A stretch of 5,970 nucleotides of DNA from Comamonadaceae bacterium (GTDB lineage: Bacteria > Pseudomonadota > Gammaproteobacteria > Burkholderiales > Burkholderiaceae), in assembly GCA_947505915.1 (NCBI GenBank), contig CANNNH010000098.1:1-5970 (forward strand), in the 5' to 3' direction. Below are positions 1 through 5,970 of the stretch, piece by piece. Each line of letters opens with the position of its first letter. The stretch's first letter is position 1. The position numbers were made by a program, and so were the translations under genes. The notes below the pieces were generated by a model. The model searched no databases, was not told where the DNA came from, and worked only from the letters and a program-made list of their open reading frames with translations.

Positions 1-31
1 AGCAAGGCCCGCTAAAACCCAATATCGAGAT

Positions 32-59
32 TACGAAATTCACATTGCTCAATTTCGTA
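32..59. repeat. Inverted repeat, 9-bp perfect arms
   Basis: TACGAAATT (32-40) and AATTTCGTA (51-59) are perfect inverted arms around a 10-nt AT-rich spacer. There is no T-tract after either arm, so an intrinsic terminator is unlikely. The arm sequence and spacing look more like an operator for a dimeric DNA-binding protein. It lies beyond the 3' end of the HEPN fragment, so the gene it would serve is probably left of the window. The symmetry is seen directly; the regulatory role is inferred. The rest of 1-103 shows no gene. Confidence 0.45.
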
Positions 60-103
60 TTTACCAATAACAGTCGGGAATTGCCGTCTTGCCGACAGAA
101 AAC

Positions 104-298
104 CTATTTCGACAGCAACAGACTGGCCTGGGCCACCATTTTTTTACCAGCCACAACCAATGTGCTCACATGCTTGTGTCCGGTTTGCAGGGCGCTGGTC
201 AGTAGCGCCAGGTCTTCGATGTATTCGTGGACCATCTGGTTGCGAAGTTTGCGGATTTCCAGCCAGGCTTCAACAGACTCTATCCAGCCCTTCGGCAA
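104..298 (-). pseudogene. Truncated HEPN-domain protein (toxin partner of MNT antitoxin), C-terminal half only
   Basis: The 64 residues from a TTG at 298 contain RKLRNQMVHEY, the R-x4-H motif of HEPN ribonucleases (R-N-Q-M-V-H), preceded by a GWIESVEAWLE helix. Both are typical of the C-terminal half of HEPN proteins encoded beside minimal nucleotidyltransferases. Such partners are usually about 130-150 residues, so the N-terminal helices are missing. The start of the normal gene should lie just after the MNT stop at 336. An ATG at 317-315 does open a frame there (MSALLFFAEGLDRV), but it ends after 15 codons in a different frame from the HEPN motif. This fits a deletion with a frame change near 290-317. 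Intact HEPN toxins cleave RNA; this fragment keeps the R-x4-H but not the full fold, so it is probably inactive. A short functional protein starting at the TTG is possible but less likely. Confidence 0.6.
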
Positions 299-335
299 AG
301 AAAAGCAAGGCGCTCATGCTGCGCAGGGGTAAGGC

Positions 336-635
336 TCACAGCCGCACACCCTCTTGCGTGGCGATACGGTGGATGGGCTGCTCTAGCAGATTGGGGGCCT
401 TGAGCAATACGTCTACCTTGCGCCCGTGCATCGAGCGCGAAACGCGACTGGCCAAGCGTGCCGCCATGAGGGCCGGTTCTTGAACAGCTTGCAGCACCTC
501 CACCATCAGGTCAACATCGCCGCCTTTTTGGTCGTCATGCACGCGCGAGCCAAACAAAGTGACCTGAACGCCCGGGCCAAGCACCTCCTGCGCCGTGCTT
601 TTGATGGTGTCGATCTGGGCGGGAGTCAGGCGCAT
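336..635 (-). CDS. mntA: Minimal nucleotidyltransferase (MNT) antitoxin, MntA-like
   Basis: This 99-residue protein is a complete minimal nucleotidyltransferase of the DNA polymerase beta fold. The signature is visible: F-G-S-R at 28-31, the metal-binding pair D40 and D42 in GGDVDL, and a third acidic residue, D75, in KVDVLL. In characterised MntA/HepT modules the MNT enzyme AMPylates the HEPN ribonuclease and neutralises it. All catalytic residues are kept, so the enzyme could be active. Its cognate HEPN gene directly downstream on the same strand is truncated, leaving an antitoxin without a full toxin. The ATG at 635 has no clear Shine-Dalgarno sequence upstream, and a palindromic repeat sits about 17 nt before it. 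Family membership is secure; the AMPylation role is inferred from the family. Confidence 0.85.
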   Translation of the reverse strand: MRLTPAQIDTIKSTAQEVLGPGVQVTLFGSRVHDDQKGGDVDLMVEVLQAVQEPALMAARLASRVSRSMHGRKVDVLLKAPNLLEQPIHRIATQEGVRL

Positions 636-647
636 GGAGGTTTTAGG

Positions 648-675
648 ATGGATACCCGCCTTCGCGGGTATGACA
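648..675. repeat. REP-like palindromic repeat, copy 1
   Basis: ATACCCGC (652-659) and GCGGGTAT (664-671) form a perfect 8-bp stem with a CTTC loop, within the context ATGG-stem-loop-GACA. This belongs to the dispersed palindrome common in betaproteobacterial genomes, recognisable in translation as the 'MDTRLRGYD' or 'YPRRRVSI' pattern. A related copy lies at 5915-5941. It sits between the MNT start codon and any upstream promoter, so it may form a hairpin in the mRNA leader. Similarity to copy 2 is visible directly; genome-wide abundance is from general knowledge. Confidence 0.7.
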
Positions 676-761
676 AAAAGGCAGCTTGATAGCTACCGCA
701 GTGCCGGGTTGTAAAAAACAGCACTTTCCAAACATGACGGACCGTTTGGTAAGGTTCAATT

Positions 762-810
762 TTACGGGCAAACCCGCCAGACCTCAAGCCCGCTTGCTCA
801 GACTCCCGGC
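762..810. repeat. Direct repeat copy 1: detached 3' end of the RfaH-like gene
   Basis: This 49-bp stretch matches 2616-2665 with one substitution (G796 versus A2650) and a one-base indel in a C run. On the minus strand it reads GSLSKRA then TGA at 786-784, the same C-terminal residues as the RfaH-like protein, plus the following 22 nt with the small CGGG-CAAA-CCCG hairpin. Weaker similarity continues left: TGACG and CCGTTTG occur at 735-748 and again at 2603-2614, with small indels. The sequence right of 810 is unrelated to the RfaH-like gene. It is therefore a gene-end duplicate bounding the left side of the toxin-antitoxin array. Confidence 0.85.
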
Positions 811-845
811 GCACTGGTGCTGGGGGGCTGCGAGGTTGGCCGGAT

Positions 846-873
846 TTGCTCAAAACAAGAGCTGGCGCATAAT
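846..873 (+). promoter_or_regulatory. Probable sigma-70 promoter of the MazF-type TA operon
   Basis: A -35-like TTGCTC (846-851) and a -10-like CATAAT (868-873, five of six consensus positions) are separated by 16 bp. The antitoxin ATG follows 26 bp after the -10. The adjacent palindrome at 872-885 overlaps the -10 and the expected transcription start, the usual place for an autoregulatory operator in TA operons. Found by eye only. Confidence 0.5.
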
Positions 874-885
874 GCATATATGCAT
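872..885. promoter_or_regulatory. Palindromic operator-like site of the MazF-type TA operon
   Basis: ATGCATA/TATGCAT is a perfect 14-bp palindrome directly after the -10-like CATAAT and just before the ribosome binding site AAGGAG (888-893). Ribbon-helix-helix antitoxins normally bind such short symmetric sites and repress their own operon, with the toxin as co-repressor. The palindrome is seen directly; binding by the antitoxin encoded at 900 is inferred from the family. Confidence 0.55.
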
Positions 886-899
886 AAAAGGAGCTTGCC

Positions 900-1130
900 A
901 TGCAGAAAAGAATGACCATCACCATGGACGAGGCAGTCTATGAAGGACTTGTCAGAGTCGTAGGACGGAGAAAAATCAGCGCTTTCATTGAGTCCCTGGC
1001 GAGGCCTCACGTTGTCGGAGATGACTTGGCCGCTGGCTACATGGCCATGGCGCAGGACACTCAGCGCGAGCAAGAGGCACTGGAGTGGAGCGAGGCGTTG
1101 ATTGCCGACGGAACGCATGAAGCGCGCTGA
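900..1130 (+). CDS. Ribbon-helix-helix antitoxin of a MazF/PemK-type TA pair
   Basis: This 76-residue protein starts at an ATG with a good AAGGAG ribosome binding site 6 nt upstream. Residues 5-30 ([13 protein letters not shown], then [14 protein letters not shown]) have the strand-helix-helix layout of MetJ/Arc-type DNA-binding antitoxins. The C-terminal part ([18 protein letters not shown] and on) is acidic and helical, as expected of a toxin-wrapping tail. Its stop at 1128-1130 overlaps the toxin's ATG at 1117 by 14 bp, so the two are translationally coupled. It is expected to neutralise the downstream MazF-like RNase and to repress its own promoter through the palindrome at 872-885. The pair looks intact. 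The MazE or PemI name would be by position only, so no symbol is given. Confidence 0.85.
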
Positions 1131-1443
1131 GGTCTGGTGGGTGGACTTCGATCCTGCCAGAGGCGGCGAGATCCGCAAGACCCGCCCGGCTGTCATCGTG
1201 AGCAATGACATTTCAAATGCTCATCTGAACAGAGTCCAAGTTGTACCCCTGACATCCAACATGGGGCGGCTTTACCCTAGCGAGGCGGTTGTTGCAGTAG
1301 CAGGCCAAAACAGCAAAGCGATGTCAGACCAGATGACCACCGTGGCCAAAGAGCGGTTAAGTACACGTCTGGGCGTGTTGAACAAGGCAGACATGAAAAT
1401 TGTTGAGCACGTCCTTAAGATTCAACTGGGGCTACCGCTTTGA
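1117..1443 (+). CDS. mazF: MazF/PemK-family toxin, sequence-specific mRNA endoribonuclease
   Basis: The 108-residue protein has the classic N-terminus [19 protein letters not shown], followed by [11 protein letters not shown] and VVPLTSN. In characterised MazF proteins the catalytic Arg and Thr lie in the 'RP.hhh.ND' and 'hhhhT' motifs; here these correspond to R23 and T46. The C-terminal [13 protein letters not shown] and LGVL segments match the usual MazF ending, and the length is normal. The ATG at 1117 fits the family start better than the upstream in-frame TTG at 1102, and it lies within the antitoxin's last codons. Members of this family cut single-stranded RNA at short sequences and stop growth when the antitoxin is degraded. 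The cleavage sequence cannot be predicted here. The gene looks complete and functional. Confidence 0.9.
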
Positions 1444-1542
1444 AGTGAACCGCGACGTCAACATTGGCAAGAATTTATCGCGAAGCATTCCGCATTCTAG
1501 TTTGCATTAGTAATACCAGAAAATACTTTTATGGAGGCCGCC

Positions 1543-1833
1543 ATGACTGAAAGTGCCGTTCGCCCTGTGGCAATCAAGATCGACGGGGACATCAAAGCTC
1601 GAGTCAAGCGCCTAGCTCAGGCGCGTCAGCGCACTCCTCATTGGTTGATGCGCGAGGCGATCACGCAGTATGTGGATCGCGAAGAAAAGCGAGAGGCCTT
1701 TCGTCTGGACTCGCAGCTGGCATGGGAAGCCTTCCGTGCGAACGGTTTGCACGTGAGCGCCGTTGAGGCAGATGCCTGGATGGCAGAGCTCGAAAAAGGC
1801 AATGACATAGAGCCACCTGGATACCAAGCCTGA
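1543..1833 (+). CDS. CopG/ParD-like ribbon-helix-helix antitoxin, orphaned
   Basis: The 96-residue product begins PVAIKIDGDIKARVKRLA and continues with RTPHWLMREAITQYV, the beta strand and two helices of a CopG-family DNA-binding domain. The C-terminal region (LHVSAVEADAWMAELE, then EPP) is the toxin-binding part typical of antitoxins paired with RelE/ParE toxins. The ATG at 1543 is preferred over one at 1531 because GGAGG at 1533-1537 is a strong ribosome binding site at the right distance for 1543. In intact loci the toxin start overlaps the antitoxin's end. Here only the last codons of a toxin remain (to 1888), and the antitoxin's own last residues (GYQA) may be altered by the deletion junction. 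It can probably still fold and bind DNA, but has no local toxin to neutralise. Confidence 0.85.
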   Translation: MTESAVRPVAIKIDGDIKARVKRLAQARQRTPHWLMREAITQYVDREEKREAFRLDSQLAWEAFRANGLHVSAVEADAWMAELEKGNDIEPPGYQA

Positions 1834-1888
1834 CCAACAGTTTGTCTCCGTTCTGGCCGTACGCCACCAGAAAGAGGTGGGGTTCTGA
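1811..1888 (+). pseudogene. RelE/ParE-family toxin remnant (C-terminal end only)
   Basis: A short open stretch between stop codons at 1808-1810 and 1886-1888 encodes, at its end, QFVSVLAVRHQKEVGF. This is the characteristic last strand and tail of RelE/ParE-family toxins ('VLAVRHQKEAGF/Y'). A full toxin is about 95-105 residues; here no more than about 25 codons remain and there is no start codon. It overlaps the end of the upstream antitoxin in another frame, so the toxin body appears to have been deleted with a junction near 1815-1838. The remnant itself is clear in the sequence; its identity rests on recognition of the tail motif. Confidence 0.65.
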
Positions 1889-1915
1889 GAGGGGATTTAC
1901 GTTTTACTAGATTGA

Positions 1916-1933
1916 TCTATTGAATTTAATAGA
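1916..1933. repeat. AT-rich inverted repeat upstream of ccdAB
   Basis: TCTATT (1916-1921) and AATAGA (1928-1933) are perfect arms around GAATTT; as an 18-bp palindrome only two positions fail. It lies between the ParE remnant and the ccdAB promoter region. It could be an accessory operator or upstream promoter element. There is no T-tract to support a terminator. Role unknown. Confidence 0.35.
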
Positions 1934-1966
1934 CTCGCCTAGCATTCTGTACCCAAAAAATGCGCC

Positions 1967-1994
1967 TAAAATATGCGCATAATATTATGCGCAT
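1967..1994 (+). promoter_or_regulatory. ccdAB promoter region with perfect 22-bp palindrome (operator-like)
   Basis: Positions 1973-1994 form a perfect palindrome, ATGCGCATAAT followed by ATTATGCGCAT. It contains a CATAAT -10-like hexamer (1978-1983), and a second candidate, TAAAAT (1967-1972), touches its left edge. No convincing -35 was found. The extra TGCGC at 1961 resembles another half site. The position just upstream of ccdA matches where CcdA/CcdB complexes bind in known ccd operons to give conditional repression. The palindrome is certain; the function is inferred. Confidence 0.6.
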
Positions 1995-2004
1995 GGACAC
2001 CCTT

Positions 2005-2268
2005 ATGCCAGCCACACCATCCTCCCAACATGTAAGAACCGGTAGGCCCGGTAAACGGGCAATCAATTTGAGCCTGAGCAGCGATGTTCTGGAGGCCGCC
2101 AAGGGCCTTGAGATCAACATTTCTCAGGTTTGCGAACAACACCTGCGGGAAGTTGTGCTCCGCGAGCAAGAGCGCAAATGGCGCGAAGAGCATGCCGATT
2201 TCATTGCGGCTTACAACGCCACTATGGAGGCTGAGGGGCTGCCTCTGGACGAATGGAGAAGCTTCTGA
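2005..2268 (+). CDS. ccdA: CcdA-family antitoxin
   Basis: From the ATG at 2005 the protein has 87 residues. After a basic lead (TGRPGKRA) comes INLSLSSDVLEAAKGLEINISQVCEQHL, the N-terminal ribbon-helix-helix of CcdA. The tail REQERKWREEHADFIAAYNA and GLPLDEWRSF has the disordered CcdB-binding segment with the family's terminal W-R-x-F-like ending. In-frame ATGs at 1960, 1987 and 1993 lie in or before the palindrome, so 2005 is preferred, although its ribosome binding site (GGA at 1995-1997) is weak. The stop overlaps the ccdB start in TGATG, giving translational coupling. CcdA binds CcdB, frees poisoned gyrase and represses the operon; these roles are known for the F-plasmid family and inferred here. 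Confidence 0.85.
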   Translation: MPATPSSQHVRTGRPGKRAINLSLSSDVLEAAKGLEINISQVCEQHLREVVLREQERKWREEHADFIAAYNATMEAEGLPLDEWRSF

Positions 2269-2585
2269 TGGCACGCTTTGATGTCTACGCAAATGCAGGC
2301 AGCCACGCGGCAACCACGCCCTACCTACTGGATGTGCAGAGCGATCTGCTCGATGGGTTGGACAGCAGGATGGTGATTCCCCTGCGCAGTATCAAGCACT
2401 TCCCCAAGGTCAAGCTGTCATCTCGCCTGACTCCGGTATTCACCATAGAAAGAGAAGAGTTTTTACTGGAAACGCCGAAGATGGGCGCTGTTGCCAGCAA
2501 GGCGTTGAAGTCACCGGTGACCTCTTTGGCGCATGCGCGTGACCAAATCACCGCAGCACTTGATTTTTTGTTTCAGGGCTACTGA
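2268..2585 (+). CDS. ccdB: CcdB-family toxin, DNA gyrase poison
   Basis: The 105-residue protein starts MARFDVYAN and contains YLLDVQSDLLDGLDSRMVIPL, the diagnostic CcdB segment (compare VDVQSDIIDTPGRRMVIPL in the F plasmid), ending in ITAALDFLFQGY. The ATG at 2268 overlaps the ccdA stop and has GGAGA at 2255-2259; it matches the family N-terminus better than the in-frame ATG at 2253. CcdB traps the gyrase-DNA cleavage complex through its three C-terminal residues (W-G-I in F). Here they are Q-G-Y: the glycine is kept but the tryptophan is replaced, as also seen in chromosomal homologues such as the Vibrio fischeri one ending T-G-I. The gene appears full length, so a working toxin is likely but its gyrase potency is uncertain. 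It converges on the RfaH-like gene. Confidence 0.9.
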   Translation: MARFDVYANAGSHAATTPYLLDVQSDLLDGLDSRMVIPLRSIKHFPKVKLSSRLTPVFTIEREEFLLETPKMGAVASKALKSPVTSLAHARDQITAALDFLFQGY

Positions 2586-2615
2586 TGGCTTTGAAGGTAG
2601 TCTGACGCCGTTTGA

Positions 2616-2665
2616 TTACGGGCAAACCCGCCAGACCTCAAGCCCGCTTACTCAGACTCCCCGGC
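2616..2665. repeat. Direct repeat copy 2: native 3' end of the RfaH-like gene and flank
   Basis: This 50-bp segment spans the last codons (GSLSKRA and TGA at 2640-2638) of the RfaH-like gene plus 22 nt beyond, and is nearly identical to 762-810. It begins 30 nt after the ccdB stop. The flank includes CGGG-CAAA-CCCG (2619-2630), a 4-bp stem without a T-tract, too weak to call a terminator. The frame is uninterrupted here, so this copy is the functional gene end. It marks the right boundary of the toxin-antitoxin array. Confidence 0.85.
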
Positions 2666-3135
2666 TCGATTGACAGGCGCACTTGCTTGCTCATAATCTC
2701 AATGAGCACCATCACGCGCGCTATGCCGTCTGCCATTTGGTAAATGGCCTCCAGGCCGGCAAAGGGGCCCTGGTTGATGCGCAGCTGCTCACCGGGGGCA
2801 AAGTGCGACTGCTGCAGGGGCTGGGCTTGGAGTTGGGCCTGAATGGTCGAGACCAAAGCATCGTCTACCTTGGCCGGCACATTGCCAAAGCTGACCAATC
2901 GGCTCACACCGATGGTGTAGCGGATAGGGTTCCAGCTTTTACCTTGCTGGCTGGCGTCCAGCCGTATGAAAAAGTAGCGTGGAAACAGCGGCTCATCAAC
3001 CGGCACCAAAAGCTTGCGACGCAGCTTTTCAACGCTGATCAGCGGTAAATAACACTCATAGCCCTGCCGCTGCAGGTTGTCCAGCGCCAAGGACTCTTGC
3101 CTGGGCTTGCTGTGAATGAGGTACCAGCTGAACAT
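2638..3135 (-). CDS. RfaH-like NusG-family transcription antiterminator
   Basis: The 165-residue protein (ATG at 3135) opens with MFSWYLIHSKPRQE, aligning with the MQSWYLLYCKRGQ start of E. coli RfaH. It continues with the NusG N-terminal domain (about 1-100), including the DEPLFPRYFFIRLD segment at 47-60 and the RYTIGVSRLVSFG strand. The C-terminal KOW-type domain (about 115-158) reads APGEQLRINQGPFAGLEAIY and on to MSKQVRLSIEP. RfaH-type paralogues bind paused RNA polymerase and prevent termination in long polysaccharide or virulence operons. A TTG at 3147 would add four residues but is less family-like; neither start has a clear Shine-Dalgarno. It follows the Wzz-like gene by 47 nt and is probably cotranscribed. 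Its 3' end is duplicated at 762-810. Confidence 0.85.
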   Translation of the reverse strand: MFSWYLIHSKPRQESLALDNLQRQGYECYLPLISVEKLRRKLLVPVDEPLFPRYFFIRLDASQQGKSWNPIRYTIGVSRLVSFGNVPAKVDDALVSTIQAQLQAQPLQQSHFAPGEQLRINQGPFAGLEAIYQMADGIARVMVLIEIMSKQVRLSIEPGSLSKRA

Positions 3136-3182
3136 GTTGCAGGGCAATAGCTAGCGGGTTAGCTGGTTAGACCGCAAAGGGC

Positions 3183-4111: not shown

Positions 4112-4474
4112 CTATAAGCTTATCTTTGCCTCGCTCATGCATTGCCCCAGCTGGGCAAAGTAATGCTCGGCCATGGGTGTGGGCTGAACGTATTTAATGC
4201 GGTTGTCAACTTCGTCAGGCACCAGGGTGAGCACGCCTTTTTGGCGCAAAGACTTCAAGCGGCGGTGCGCAGTGGTCGAAGAGACGTCCTGAGACAGGGC
4301 CATTGCTTGCAGCACGGTGATTTTTTGGCCGGCCTGCCAAACGGTGGCAAAGAGGTGCAGCAGGCGCTCTTCGACCGGGTCCAGCAGCACGAAATCTGGC
4401 AAATTCCGCAAAGATTGCACCAACTGCAAAAACCTCAAGTAGGTCTCAGAGTACTGTTTCTGTTGATTCGGCAT
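4112..4474 (-). CDS. MarR-like winged-helix transcriptional regulator
   Basis: The 120-residue protein begins with a helical segment (YSETYLRFLQLVQSLR), then LDPVEERLLHLFATVWQAGQKITVLQAMAL. A helix-turn-helix follows (SSTTAHRRLKSLRQKGVLTL, about 70-90), with a wing (PDEVDNRIKYVQPT) and a C-terminal dimer helix. This is a compact MarR-type fold, of the kind that occurs next to exopolysaccharide genes in related bacteria. It is the first gene of the leftward set, 56 nt before the Wzz-like start, and diverges from the phasin gene across a 164-nt intergenic region. It probably controls this operon, but its ligand and target are unknown. AAGGG sits very close (2 nt) before the ATG, so the ribosome binding site is not ideal. 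Confidence 0.75.
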   Translation of the reverse strand: MPNQQKQYSETYLRFLQLVQSLRNLPDFVLLDPVEERLLHLFATVWQAGQKITVLQAMALSQDVSSTTAHRRLKSLRQKGVLTLVPDEVDNRIKYVQPTPMAEHYFAQLGQCMSEAKISL

Positions 4475-4638
4475 AGCCCTTCATCATAGCGTTAAAGCTT
4501 GTCGCCTAGACCAGTGTTCTTGCGATTCATATGGCTGCTTTTAGAAGATGCCGCCTAATACCGCACGAGGGAGCGGCTTAACATCGGTTGCGCTTGCTGA
4601 CTTGCCCGCCTCATTCACTTTAAACCCCCACAAAACCG
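4475..4638. other. Divergent intergenic region between MarR-like regulator and phasin
   Basis: These 164 bp must carry the promoters for both the leftward polysaccharide operon and the rightward phasin gene. No consensus-quality -35/-10 pair, clear palindrome or RNA element was recognised. The phasin ATG has no Shine-Dalgarno; the preceding bases are C/A-rich. No protein-coding remnant was seen. Confidence 0.4.
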
Positions 4639-5175
4639 ATGCCCGCCAAAAAAAACACCACCACCCGACCCGAAGCAAAACGCAGCGAAGCACCGCACAC
4701 CGCCGGCCTGGTGCAAGACTCTGCGCAGCAAATCTGGCTGGCCGGCCTGGGTGCTTTTGCCAAGGCGCAAGAAGAAGGTAGCAAGGCCTTTCAGGGTTTG
4801 GTGAAAGAAGGCCTGAGCCTGCAACGCCAGACCAAAGCCGCAGCCGAAGAAAAACTGGCCGAAGCCAGCCGCAAATTCAGCAGCCTGGCCGAGGCGACCA
4901 CGGGCTTGAGTAGCGGCATGAGCGCCAGCCTCAGCAGCCTGGGCGCCAGGGCAGCGCAGCCCTGGGACAAGTTAGAGAGCATTTTTGAAGAACGCGTAGC
5001 CAAAGCGCTCGCCCACCTGGGTGCACCCTCAGCCGCCGACATGGCGGCCTTGCAAGCAGAAGTAGCGGCTTTAAAGCGGCAGGTGGCGGCGCTCAGTGCC
5101 GGGGCAAAGCCAGCAAAAAGAGTGGCCAAGGCGCCCGCAAGCAAGGCCAAGGCGAGGGCGCGTTCTGCCAGCTAA
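4639..5175 (+). CDS. Phasin family protein (polyhydroxyalkanoate granule-associated)
   Basis: This 178-residue protein contains DSAQQIWLAGLGAFAKAQEEG followed by FQGLVKEGLSLQRQTKAAAEEKL (about 27-72), the hallmark amphipathic helix of the PhaI/PhaF granule-associated proteins. A long helical region follows, then a heptad-patterned segment (MAALQAEVAALKRQVAAL, about 135-152) that probably mediates oligomerisation. The tail is rich in Lys, Ala and Arg (AKPAKRVAKAPASKAKARARS), like the histone-like DNA-binding tail of PhaF. It probably coats cytoplasmic PHA granules and may link them to the nucleoid. The basic tail is short compared with the long AAKP repeats of Pseudomonas PhaF. A TetR gene follows 75 nt downstream on the same strand. 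Confidence 0.88.
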   Translation: MPAKKNTTTRPEAKRSEAPHTAGLVQDSAQQIWLAGLGAFAKAQEEGSKAFQGLVKEGLSLQRQTKAAAEEKLAEASRKFSSLAEATTGLSSGMSASLSSLGARAAQPWDKLESIFEERVAKALAHLGAPSAADMAALQAEVAALKRQVAALSAGAKPAKRVAKAPASKAKARARSAS

Positions 5176-5250
5176 TGGCCTTCCCTAGTTACCCGGCCGC
5201 GCCGCCTGGGTTAGAGTGCCCTCAGACACAAGAGTCAGGAAGGCAAGCCG

Positions 5251-5940
5251 ATGGCGAAAAAAGCGCCGCGCCGCACTGCGGAGCGCATTCTCGAGGTGAC
5301 GCTGGCGCTGTTCAACCGCTTTGGCGAGCCCAATGTTTCGACCACGCTGATATCAGCCGAGCTGGGGATCAGCCCTGGCAATCTTTACTACCACTACCCG
5401 GCCAAAGACGAGCTGATCAACGCCCTGCTGGAGCGCTATGAAAAAGCGCTGGGCGAATTGCTGGGCGCCAGTGAAGGCGTGCGTGATGTGGAAGACGCCT
5501 GGTTTTTCATGCACACGCTGTTTGAGCGTATTTGGGAATACCGGTTTTTGTACCGCGACCTCAACGACTTGCTGAGTAAAAACCGCAAGCTTGAAACGCA
5601 TTTCCAGCGCATCATCGACAACAAGACCCGCGCCGTCAAAGCCATGCTGGCCAGCATGACGCTGCACCGCGCCATGAGCATGGACTCGCGCCAGACCGAG
5701 CCCACGGCCACCAGCATGGTGGTGGTGCTGACCTACTGGCTGAGCTTTGAATACGTGCGCAACCCGCGCCACGCGCTAGAGCCCGAAAACGCCCAAACCG
5801 CCCTGCTGCGCGGCGCCCACCACGTGCTCAACCTGTTGATCCCCTACCTCGAGCCCGTGCAGCGCCTGCACCTGCAAGCGCTGGTGGACGCCTACACCAG
5901 CCGGGAAGAGGGGGATGGATCCCCGCCTGCGCGAGGATGA
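5251..5940 (+). CDS. TetR-family transcriptional regulator with repeat-derived C-terminus
   Basis: The 229-residue protein starts at an ATG with AGGAAGG (5237-5243) 7 nt upstream. Residues 8-60 form a TetR DNA-binding domain: RTAERILEVTLALFNRFGE, then VSTTLISAELGISPGNLYYHY (the helix-turn-helix) and PAKDELINALLERYE. The rest is a helical ligand-binding and dimer domain rich in aromatic residues (AWFFMHTLFERIWEYRFLYRDL). The effector is unknown; by position it may control the upstream phasin or PHA metabolism. The final residues (roughly EGDGSPPARG) are encoded by the palindromic repeat at 5915-5941, which also supplies the stop codon. The natural end of the domain is probably near LVDAYTS, so the tail looks like an acquired extension of about ten residues. 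Confidence 0.88.
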   Translation: MAKKAPRRTAERILEVTLALFNRFGEPNVSTTLISAELGISPGNLYYHYPAKDELINALLERYEKALGELLGASEGVRDVEDAWFFMHTLFERIWEYRFLYRDLNDLLSKNRKLETHFQRIIDNKTRAVKAMLASMTLHRAMSMDSRQTEPTATSMVVVLTYWLSFEYVRNPRHALEPENAQTALLRGAHHVLNLLIPYLEPVQRLHLQALVDAYTSREEGDGSPPARG

Positions 5941-5943
5941 CGG
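5913..5943. repeat. REP-like palindromic repeat, copy 2, overlapping the TetR gene end
   Basis: The core ATGGATCCCCGCCTGCGCGA followed by GGATGACGG resembles copy 1 at 648-675: same ATGGAT lead, CCCGCC-loop-CGCG stem and ATGAC end. The stem is ATCCCCGC against GCGAGGAT, with one mismatch. It reads as the familiar 'MDPRLREDDG' pattern in another frame. The element lies inside the last codons of the TetR gene and contains its TGA. As a hairpin at a transcript end it could protect the mRNA 3' end, but there is no T-tract. Confidence 0.7.
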
Positions 5944-5970
5944 ACTGGGCGGGGATGGCGGAAGGGATTC

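Follow-up and report, generated by a model that had tools for sequence, protein, structure and literature searches.

Organization of the locus

The window analyzed here—a 5,970-nt stretch of contig CANNNH010000098.1 from a Comamonadaceae bacterium—contains a block of toxin–antitoxin (TA) genes enclosed by two direct repeats of the 3′ end of rfaH. The rfaH gene lies complete on the minus strand (2638–3147) and encodes RfaH, a NusG paralogue (TIGR01955, 167.1 bits at a cut-off of 144.5). The block is read from the plus strand throughout and features three modules: mazEF; an orphan antitoxin with a ParE remnant; and ccdAB. The first consists of a MazE-like antitoxin (900–1130; 80% to G268) and a MazF/PemK toxin (1117–1443; PF02452, 90.5 bits, 9.8e-26), and has the composition of a mazEF/pemIK module—a toxin of this family with a small upstream antitoxin—although the antitoxin stays under the NCBIfam cut-off (TA_MazE, 19.1 bits, cut-off 65). 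The second consists of a CopG/RHH antitoxin of the ParD-like kind (1543–1833; PF01402, 33 bits, 5.2e-8), followed by what appear to be the last residues only of a ParE toxin (1834–1888), as read from the sequence and compared by eye with locus L089. The third is a type II module with both Pfam families in tandem: CcdA (1960–2268; PF07362, 91.3 bits for 1972–2268, 4.9e-26) and CcdB (2268–2585; PF01845, 120.6 bits, 3.9e-35). The Pfam matches thus confirm the gene content given in a preliminary description of this DNA. Nine other overlapping frames in or at the block have no Pfam match. The TA modules and RfaH belong to known families and are ordinary representatives of these, and CcdB relatives at 97% are present in other metagenome protein sets. 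Among the matches listed, each module is found apart from the other two, in genomes and on plasmids, and with its own genes only.

The core of the repeat spans 46 nt without a gap (762–807 and 2616–2661, both with respect to the minus strand), of which 45 are identical (98%). The right core is the intact rfaH end, with the last codons GSLSKRA, the stop, and 22 nt of flank. The left core is a displaced, 5′-truncated rfaH end, with the same seven codons, the stop, and the 22 nt, and its sole change is synonymous. With one gap, the repeat extends to 762–810 and 2616–2665, which bears out the repeat of about 50 bp first described. The weaker matches that were thought to prolong it also hold: the full gapped alignment pairs 735–821 with 2603–2687 and has 71 aligned columns, 70 of them identical, and five gaps of 2–14 nt. 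Past the core, CAAACGG(TC)CGTCA is matched by CAAACGGCGTCA, a score equalled in 15 of 5000 shuffles; ahead of it, AGCA(CC)AGTGCGCC is matched by AGCAAGTGCGCC, equalled in 21 of 5000. The two copies are spaced by 1854 nt, and a comparison within the block found the repeat absent from the spacers between the TA modules. An identity of 45 in 46 positions within 6 kb is far beyond chance by a simple arithmetic estimate. As judged from the alignment, the left copy appears to be the decaying remnant of an rfaH end that was longer than 46 nt.

A 24-nt inverted similarity between the start of mazF (1120–1142) and the rfaH end (2626–2649), with one gap and two mismatches, was considered and set aside as probably due to chance. 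Its score of 31 is barely above the background maximum of 30 in 6618 tiles, and the C-terminal end SLSKRA occurs in only 2 of 20 relatives, whereas 15 end in SLSKQA.

The ops-like leader and the site of insertion

To the left of the left repeat lies an octamer, GCGGTAGC (692–699, minus strand), which we take to be the core of the ops element, which recruits RfaH. It is directly preceded by a hairpin (701–724, minus strand) common to the window and two related genomes, G041 and G055. In this set of three sequences, one C–G pair is replaced by U–G in the window and one loop-side pair is lost. An Rfam search gives no match to such a leader in the window up to an E-value of 5, nor a leader match at the gathering score in five related rfaH loci; the ops label therefore rests on the motif and its position. 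Of 68 rfaH rows, 16 have the octamer no more than 200 nt past the rfaH stop; from its background frequency, about 0.6 would be expected. The distance from the stop to the octamer is 1939 nt in the window, and subtraction of the 1854-nt repeat spacing leaves 85 nt—an ordinary rfaH–ops distance.

The DNA immediately left of the left repeat (688–724) matches G041 at 86% and G055 at 89% over 37 nt. In these genomes, the matching stretch starts approximately 124 nt and 95 nt behind the rfaH stop, respectively, and the octamer follows at 149 and 120 nt. Taken together with the corrected distance of 85 nt, this match places the TA block between rfaH and the leader that used to follow it, and identifies the left repeat as the old rfaH end at its old place. 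Judging from this comparison, mazEF, the antitoxin with its ParE remnant, and ccdAB appear to have been inserted between rfaH and the ops-like leader, so the match in G041 and G055 supports the earlier suggestion that the block is an insertion. The nearest genome is the Comamonadaceae metagenome-assembled genome G001 (locus L001), with identities of 94.6% across 2296 nt and 97.3% across 789 nt; a search with window positions 1–2800 yields only short matches there, at 216–253 and 645–683. The next relatives have an RfaH that is about 70% identical as a protein. The partial rfaH matches of G040 were not counted, as all are located at a contig end or close to one; one of them is next to an apparent insertion sequence.

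The RfaH of this species falls in protein cluster P0001, which has 330 members. Among the RfaH proteins nearest to that of the window, three (P0003, P0006, and P0029, of 39 aligned) have a mosaic look: they are 50–74% identical to it over the first 60 columns and 95–100% at the end. Such mosaics are as expected for a gene that borders a variable locus. A further metagenome protein, P0016, likewise seems mosaic between its N- and C-terminal parts when compared with the product of 2638–3147.

A second array in another species

Genome G336, whose RfaH is about 57% identical to that of the window, shows this kind of scar twice. The gene order is as follows: full rfaH; a truncated defence-like gene; a copy of the rfaH tail; ccdBA; another tail copy; and ops. 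The full gene lies on contig C92 (3077–3577) and is followed by a HEC-09-like frame (a PADLOC candidate family; positions 3–117 of 203, 5.3e-21) without a Pfam match, by the second rfaH end (4376–4503; 128 nt, 96% identical), and by ccdB and ccdA in reverse. Contig C72 carries the end of ccdBA, the third rfaH end (503–639, 93%), the octamer GCGGTAGC 150 nt on, and a UDP-sugar dehydrogenase gene. The two contigs share an exact terminal overlap of 141 nt, as for neighbours in an assembly graph, contain no N, and were left unmerged. The frame and the stop are kept in all three rfaH ends. The full gene differs from the second copy by one synonymous and three other codon changes (two of the latter near the truncated edge of the copy) and from the third copy by four synonymous and four other changes; between the second and third copies, five changes are synonymous and three are not. 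The end adjoining the ops octamer is the more diverged one, as would suit successive insertions immediately behind the full gene. In the window as in G336, ccdB is turned towards an rfaH end. What the repeats of the two arrays have in common is confined to the last codons, and these are not the same in the two species. Other cargo between repeats at the same gene, the presence of which the preliminary description had proposed as a check, is thus seen in another species.

Occurrence of the repeats

In a self-repeat test of the rfaH 3′ end across the 68 rows, two rows stand out: the window (79.7 bits) and L113 of G336 (209 bits). At least three records occur twice among these rows (L002/L150, L009/L151, and L011/L162), and one row is truncated by the end of its contig. 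Two rows of L152 match each other at 56.3 bits and are paralogues; L171 scores 37.4 bits, within the leader past the stop; seven more rows score 29–33 bits, with controls up to 31.9. The rfaH site is hence hit rarely. Among viral contigs, 47 of 80 loci were used, one of them lacking a stop and some having little sequence behind it; the 46 rows with a stop contain no 3′-end repeat except for pairs of distant rfaH paralogues.

The possibility that bracketing repeats are a property of TA modules as such was rejected. Flanks were usable at 11 of 12 ccd loci, 10 of 11 maz loci, and 12 of 12 par loci—the window being counted in each, and the G336 flanks being too short—and a repeat above 60 bits was found only in the window and in G347. 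Since a bracketing repeat is not found at TA loci elsewhere in this family sample, it belongs to the rfaH site. The next-best repeats are those of L118 (39 bits, an apparent dispersed 21-nt repeat), L089 (38 bits), and L102 (36.5 bits). That of L089 is a tight 23-nt pair around a ParD gene; there (1463–1974, genome G523), ParE seems to be deleted in a different manner, and the pair with the genes tightly between it sits directly behind the stop codon of another frame.

In G347 (contig C16, L114), ccdAB and a 202-residue open reading frame lie between 89-nt copies (82% identical) of the 3′ end of a prophage tail gene; between the two copies, 11 codon changes are synonymous, counting the stop, and 6 are not. 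This locus was dropped as a third case because single Ns stand at both joints (4088 and 5585); the outer pieces resemble an insert-free allele, and two strains were probably scaffolded together. The same concern bears on the window, in which strain variants of one locus might have been joined at the short repeat by the assembly: no genome of the window itself was among those compared, and the analogous repeat around ccdAB in G347 coincides with scaffold gaps. In contrast, the window contains no N, as is the case for both G336 contigs, the rfaH–ops spacing turns normal once the insert is subtracted, and the 97% relatives of CcdB occur in protein sets of other metagenomes. We hold an artefact to be highly improbable.

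The block and the repeat were also searched for outside their locus. No phage record matched the TA block; none of 46 plasmid records covers 80% of it, and the 20 listed cover one module each. The repeat has no match in the plasmid records, and a 24-nt piece of it has no exact match among the viral contigs. Over 299 relatives, the repeat yields only 21–24-nt matches, in four of them. One further block search over genomes scored two candidates per genome, so that its silence on the repeat means little.

Proposed recombination at the rfaH 3′ end

The differing lengths and end points of the repeats, together with the finding that no recombinase stands beside either array, favour an insertion scar that arose by recombination anchored in the 3′ end of rfaH, an account that we hold to be slightly better than an even bet. 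It starts from four observations: the repeat; the truncated coding remnant; the rfaH–ops neighbourhood in relatives; and the second array. Its inferred parts are the origin of the donor DNA, the direction of transfer, the enzymes, the one-sided homology, and the order of events. The ancestral order would have been rfaH, approximately 85 nt, the ops-like leader, and then probably a sugar-coat operon. DNA with three TA modules would have been joined directly behind rfaH, transcribed against it, in such a way that the resident gene retained a complete 3′ end and the former end was left by the ops leader, 5′-truncated and decaying by small indels. The incoming DNA most likely bore the rfaH 3′ end of a related strain that had the modules behind its own rfaH; one crossover would have occurred by homology inside rfaH, whereas the other junction would lie immediately before the old rfaH end and involve hardly any homology or none. 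Repetition of such events would yield an array with the newest cargo nearest to rfaH, as in G336. Recombination anchored by homology would explain why the repeats vary in length, why the copies have diverged in frame, and why no enzyme is present.

Several observations weigh against this account. The contig of G001 ends inside rfaH, so the empty site is not seen in a close strain, and the searches described above found no donor. The scar occurs in only 2 of 68 rfaH rows. The window repeat has one substitution and five gaps, which is an odd pattern of decay, and the codon changes between the full G336 gene and its copies are without a clear synonymous bias. Most of the mosaic RfaH proteins stem from short contigs of metagenomes, and they may be chimeras created by the assembly. 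Finally, a 46-nt direct repeat of which one copy restores the gene end is also what a site-specific element leaves behind, and recombinase-bearing phage cassettes do stand beside a host-type rfaH, on its 5′ side, in L152, L194, and L195.

The last two points lead to the main rival of homology-anchored recombination: a decayed site-specific integrative element of the cis-mobilizable element (CIME) type at the rfaH 3′ end, from which all but the addictive TA modules were lost. The repeats would then be attL and attR, and G336, with its three rfaH ends in tandem, would be a tandem accretion of such elements. Such features have precedent in that PMC5704250 gives repeats of 8–60 bp for tyrosine recombinases and describes integration in gene 3′ ends and accretion of CIMEs; tandem accretion of reduced elements is well documented. 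Large serine recombinases are present in 22 of the 251 loci over 3 kb, nearly all by a phage-type rfaH and three by a host-type rfaH, so that elements with a recombinase do reach the rfaH neighbourhood, albeit on its 5′ side. Against this stand the tiny units of about 0.8–1.9 kb each, the repeats, which are longer than 8–60 bp when gapped (85–87 nt in the window and 128–137 nt in G336) and differ in their end points, and the lack of a 3′-end repeat in the other rfaH rows and in the 46 viral-contig rows, distant paralogue pairs aside. The TA block of the window and the rfaH contigs of G336 yielded no recombinase, and a check for serine recombinases found none in the window, L112, or L113. A search for PF00589 integrases in 10 genomes, in which most of the other rfaH contigs are short, found one on the rfaH contig in three, at distances of 19.9 kb (G175), 101 kb (G089), and 355 kb (G133). 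No transposase is found among the block frames scanned, and none of 19 listed inverted pairs has its arms at both block ends, as would befit a transposon or insertion sequence. The recombinase searches and repeat ends do not establish an integrated element with the rfaH 3′ end as attachment site, as originally envisaged; we regard it as a serious rival, possible though somewhat unlikely.

The phage cassettes themselves (L194–L214; L152, 10064–15456) combine a large serine recombinase (PF00239/PF07508) and two RepB/ParB-like genes with an RfaH-like gene whose product has an additional N-terminal part; the recombinase occurs in 18 of the 21 best viral-contig rfaH matches. A second rfaH, of host type and with an ops-like octamer 150–152 nt behind, directly adjoins the cassette in L152, L194, and L195. 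In two phage contigs, further genes separate the recombinase from the phage rfaH-like gene: a nucleotidyl transferase (PF00483, with a GalU-like reading) in L106 (1–914; L106/L199), and glycosyltransferase-like and NUDIX-like frames, as judged by eye, in L204 (8549–10062).

These paired rfaH genes, which lie approximately 4.3–4.5 kb apart, also bear on a third account, namely that rfaH was duplicated in tandem, with two full genes flanking the modules and the second later deleted down to its last codons. The left copy, an in-frame rfaH end longer than 46 nt, would suit such a history. However, the pairs in L152, L194, and L195 are of a phage-type and a host-type gene with 53–54% protein identity and hence not recent duplicates, and extra deletions would be needed in two species, twice in G336. 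A deleted second gene had been named beforehand as a refuting case. It comes close to what is observed, in that the left copy is what decay has left of an rfaH end of more than 46 nt, which may or may not have belonged to a whole second gene. We consider a tandem duplication quite improbable.

A broader version of homology-anchored recombination would make the rfaH 3′ end an integrase-free landing pad, at which TA and defence modules accrete serially ahead of an ops-led sugar-coat operon, each bringing a fresh rfaH end; we put this forward tentatively and with considerable doubt. The same doubt applies to the idea that each former rfaH end is a dated scar, with the newest cargo nearest to rfaH. 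The rfaH site may collect such genes repeatedly.

Relation to known systems

In homology-facilitated illegitimate recombination after DNA uptake, foreign DNA is gained through one homologous anchor and one low-homology junction. The likeness of the rfaH arrays to this process is one of junction shape only. Chromosomal insertions of ccdAB and mazEF occur in intergenic regions at gene ends, and the window resembles these in that a short intergenic stretch is occupied by type II modules of an ordinary kind that are convergent with the neighbouring gene. Unlike in these insertions, the 3′ end of the neighbouring gene is duplicated here and an array has formed. A further likeness is found in fungal mitochondria, where, according to PMC6279837, cob and atp6 show C-terminal gene duplications next to homing-endonuclease genes. 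The order of a gene, inserted genes, and a partial copy of the gene's own 3′ end is the same; the mitochondrial inserts include degenerate homing endonucleases, whereas the rfaH cargo is TA- and defence-like with no homing nuclease recognized. The CIME and tandem accretion islands, as covered in PMC5704250, resemble the window in that their direct repeats take in the 3′ end of a gene and restore it, and resemble both the window and G336 in carrying cargo without a recombinase, with tandem repeats when several accrete. In contrast to these islands, no related recombinase-bearing element was found at the rfaH 3′ end, and the repeats are longer, gapped, and of differing end points, with about 0.8–1.9 kb of cargo per unit. 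The arrangement resembles accretion at a gene end and is not classed as a recombinase-borne element.

The modules and RfaH being of known families, what is new is that TA and defence cargo separates rfaH from an ops-like leader and that displaced ends of the gene have stayed behind. A limited literature search found no report of such an arrangement at rfaH. The arrangement suggests a route by which TA modules that lack a recombinase may reach chromosomes, namely by way of recombination at a conserved regulator next to a variable sugar-coat locus. The displaced rfaH ends would record the order in which the cargo arrived. In addition, an rfaH gene parted from the ops-like leader that it often abuts constitutes a natural test of whether that neighbourhood matters.

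Further features of the window and its relatives

To the left of the ops-like leader, the window carries a fourth module (104–635) with an MNT nucleotidyltransferase (PF01909) and a HEPN-like frame, the latter assigned by eye with no Pfam match; it has 64 residues and seems to have lost its N-terminal part. G055 carries two MNT modules (L060, 7486–8237 and 9127–9980), each with a HEPN-like neighbour as judged by eye, wedged into a run of rml-like genes upstream of rfaH that is present in G041 without them. Palindromic elements of the GGATACCCGCCTTCGCGGGTATGAC type lie at 646–680 and 5911–5945 of the window, and similar copies occur on several G001 contigs. The region 4639–5940 encodes a phasin-like frame (90.8 bits with a TIGR01837 cut-off of 94.7) and a TetR-family regulator (PF13972).

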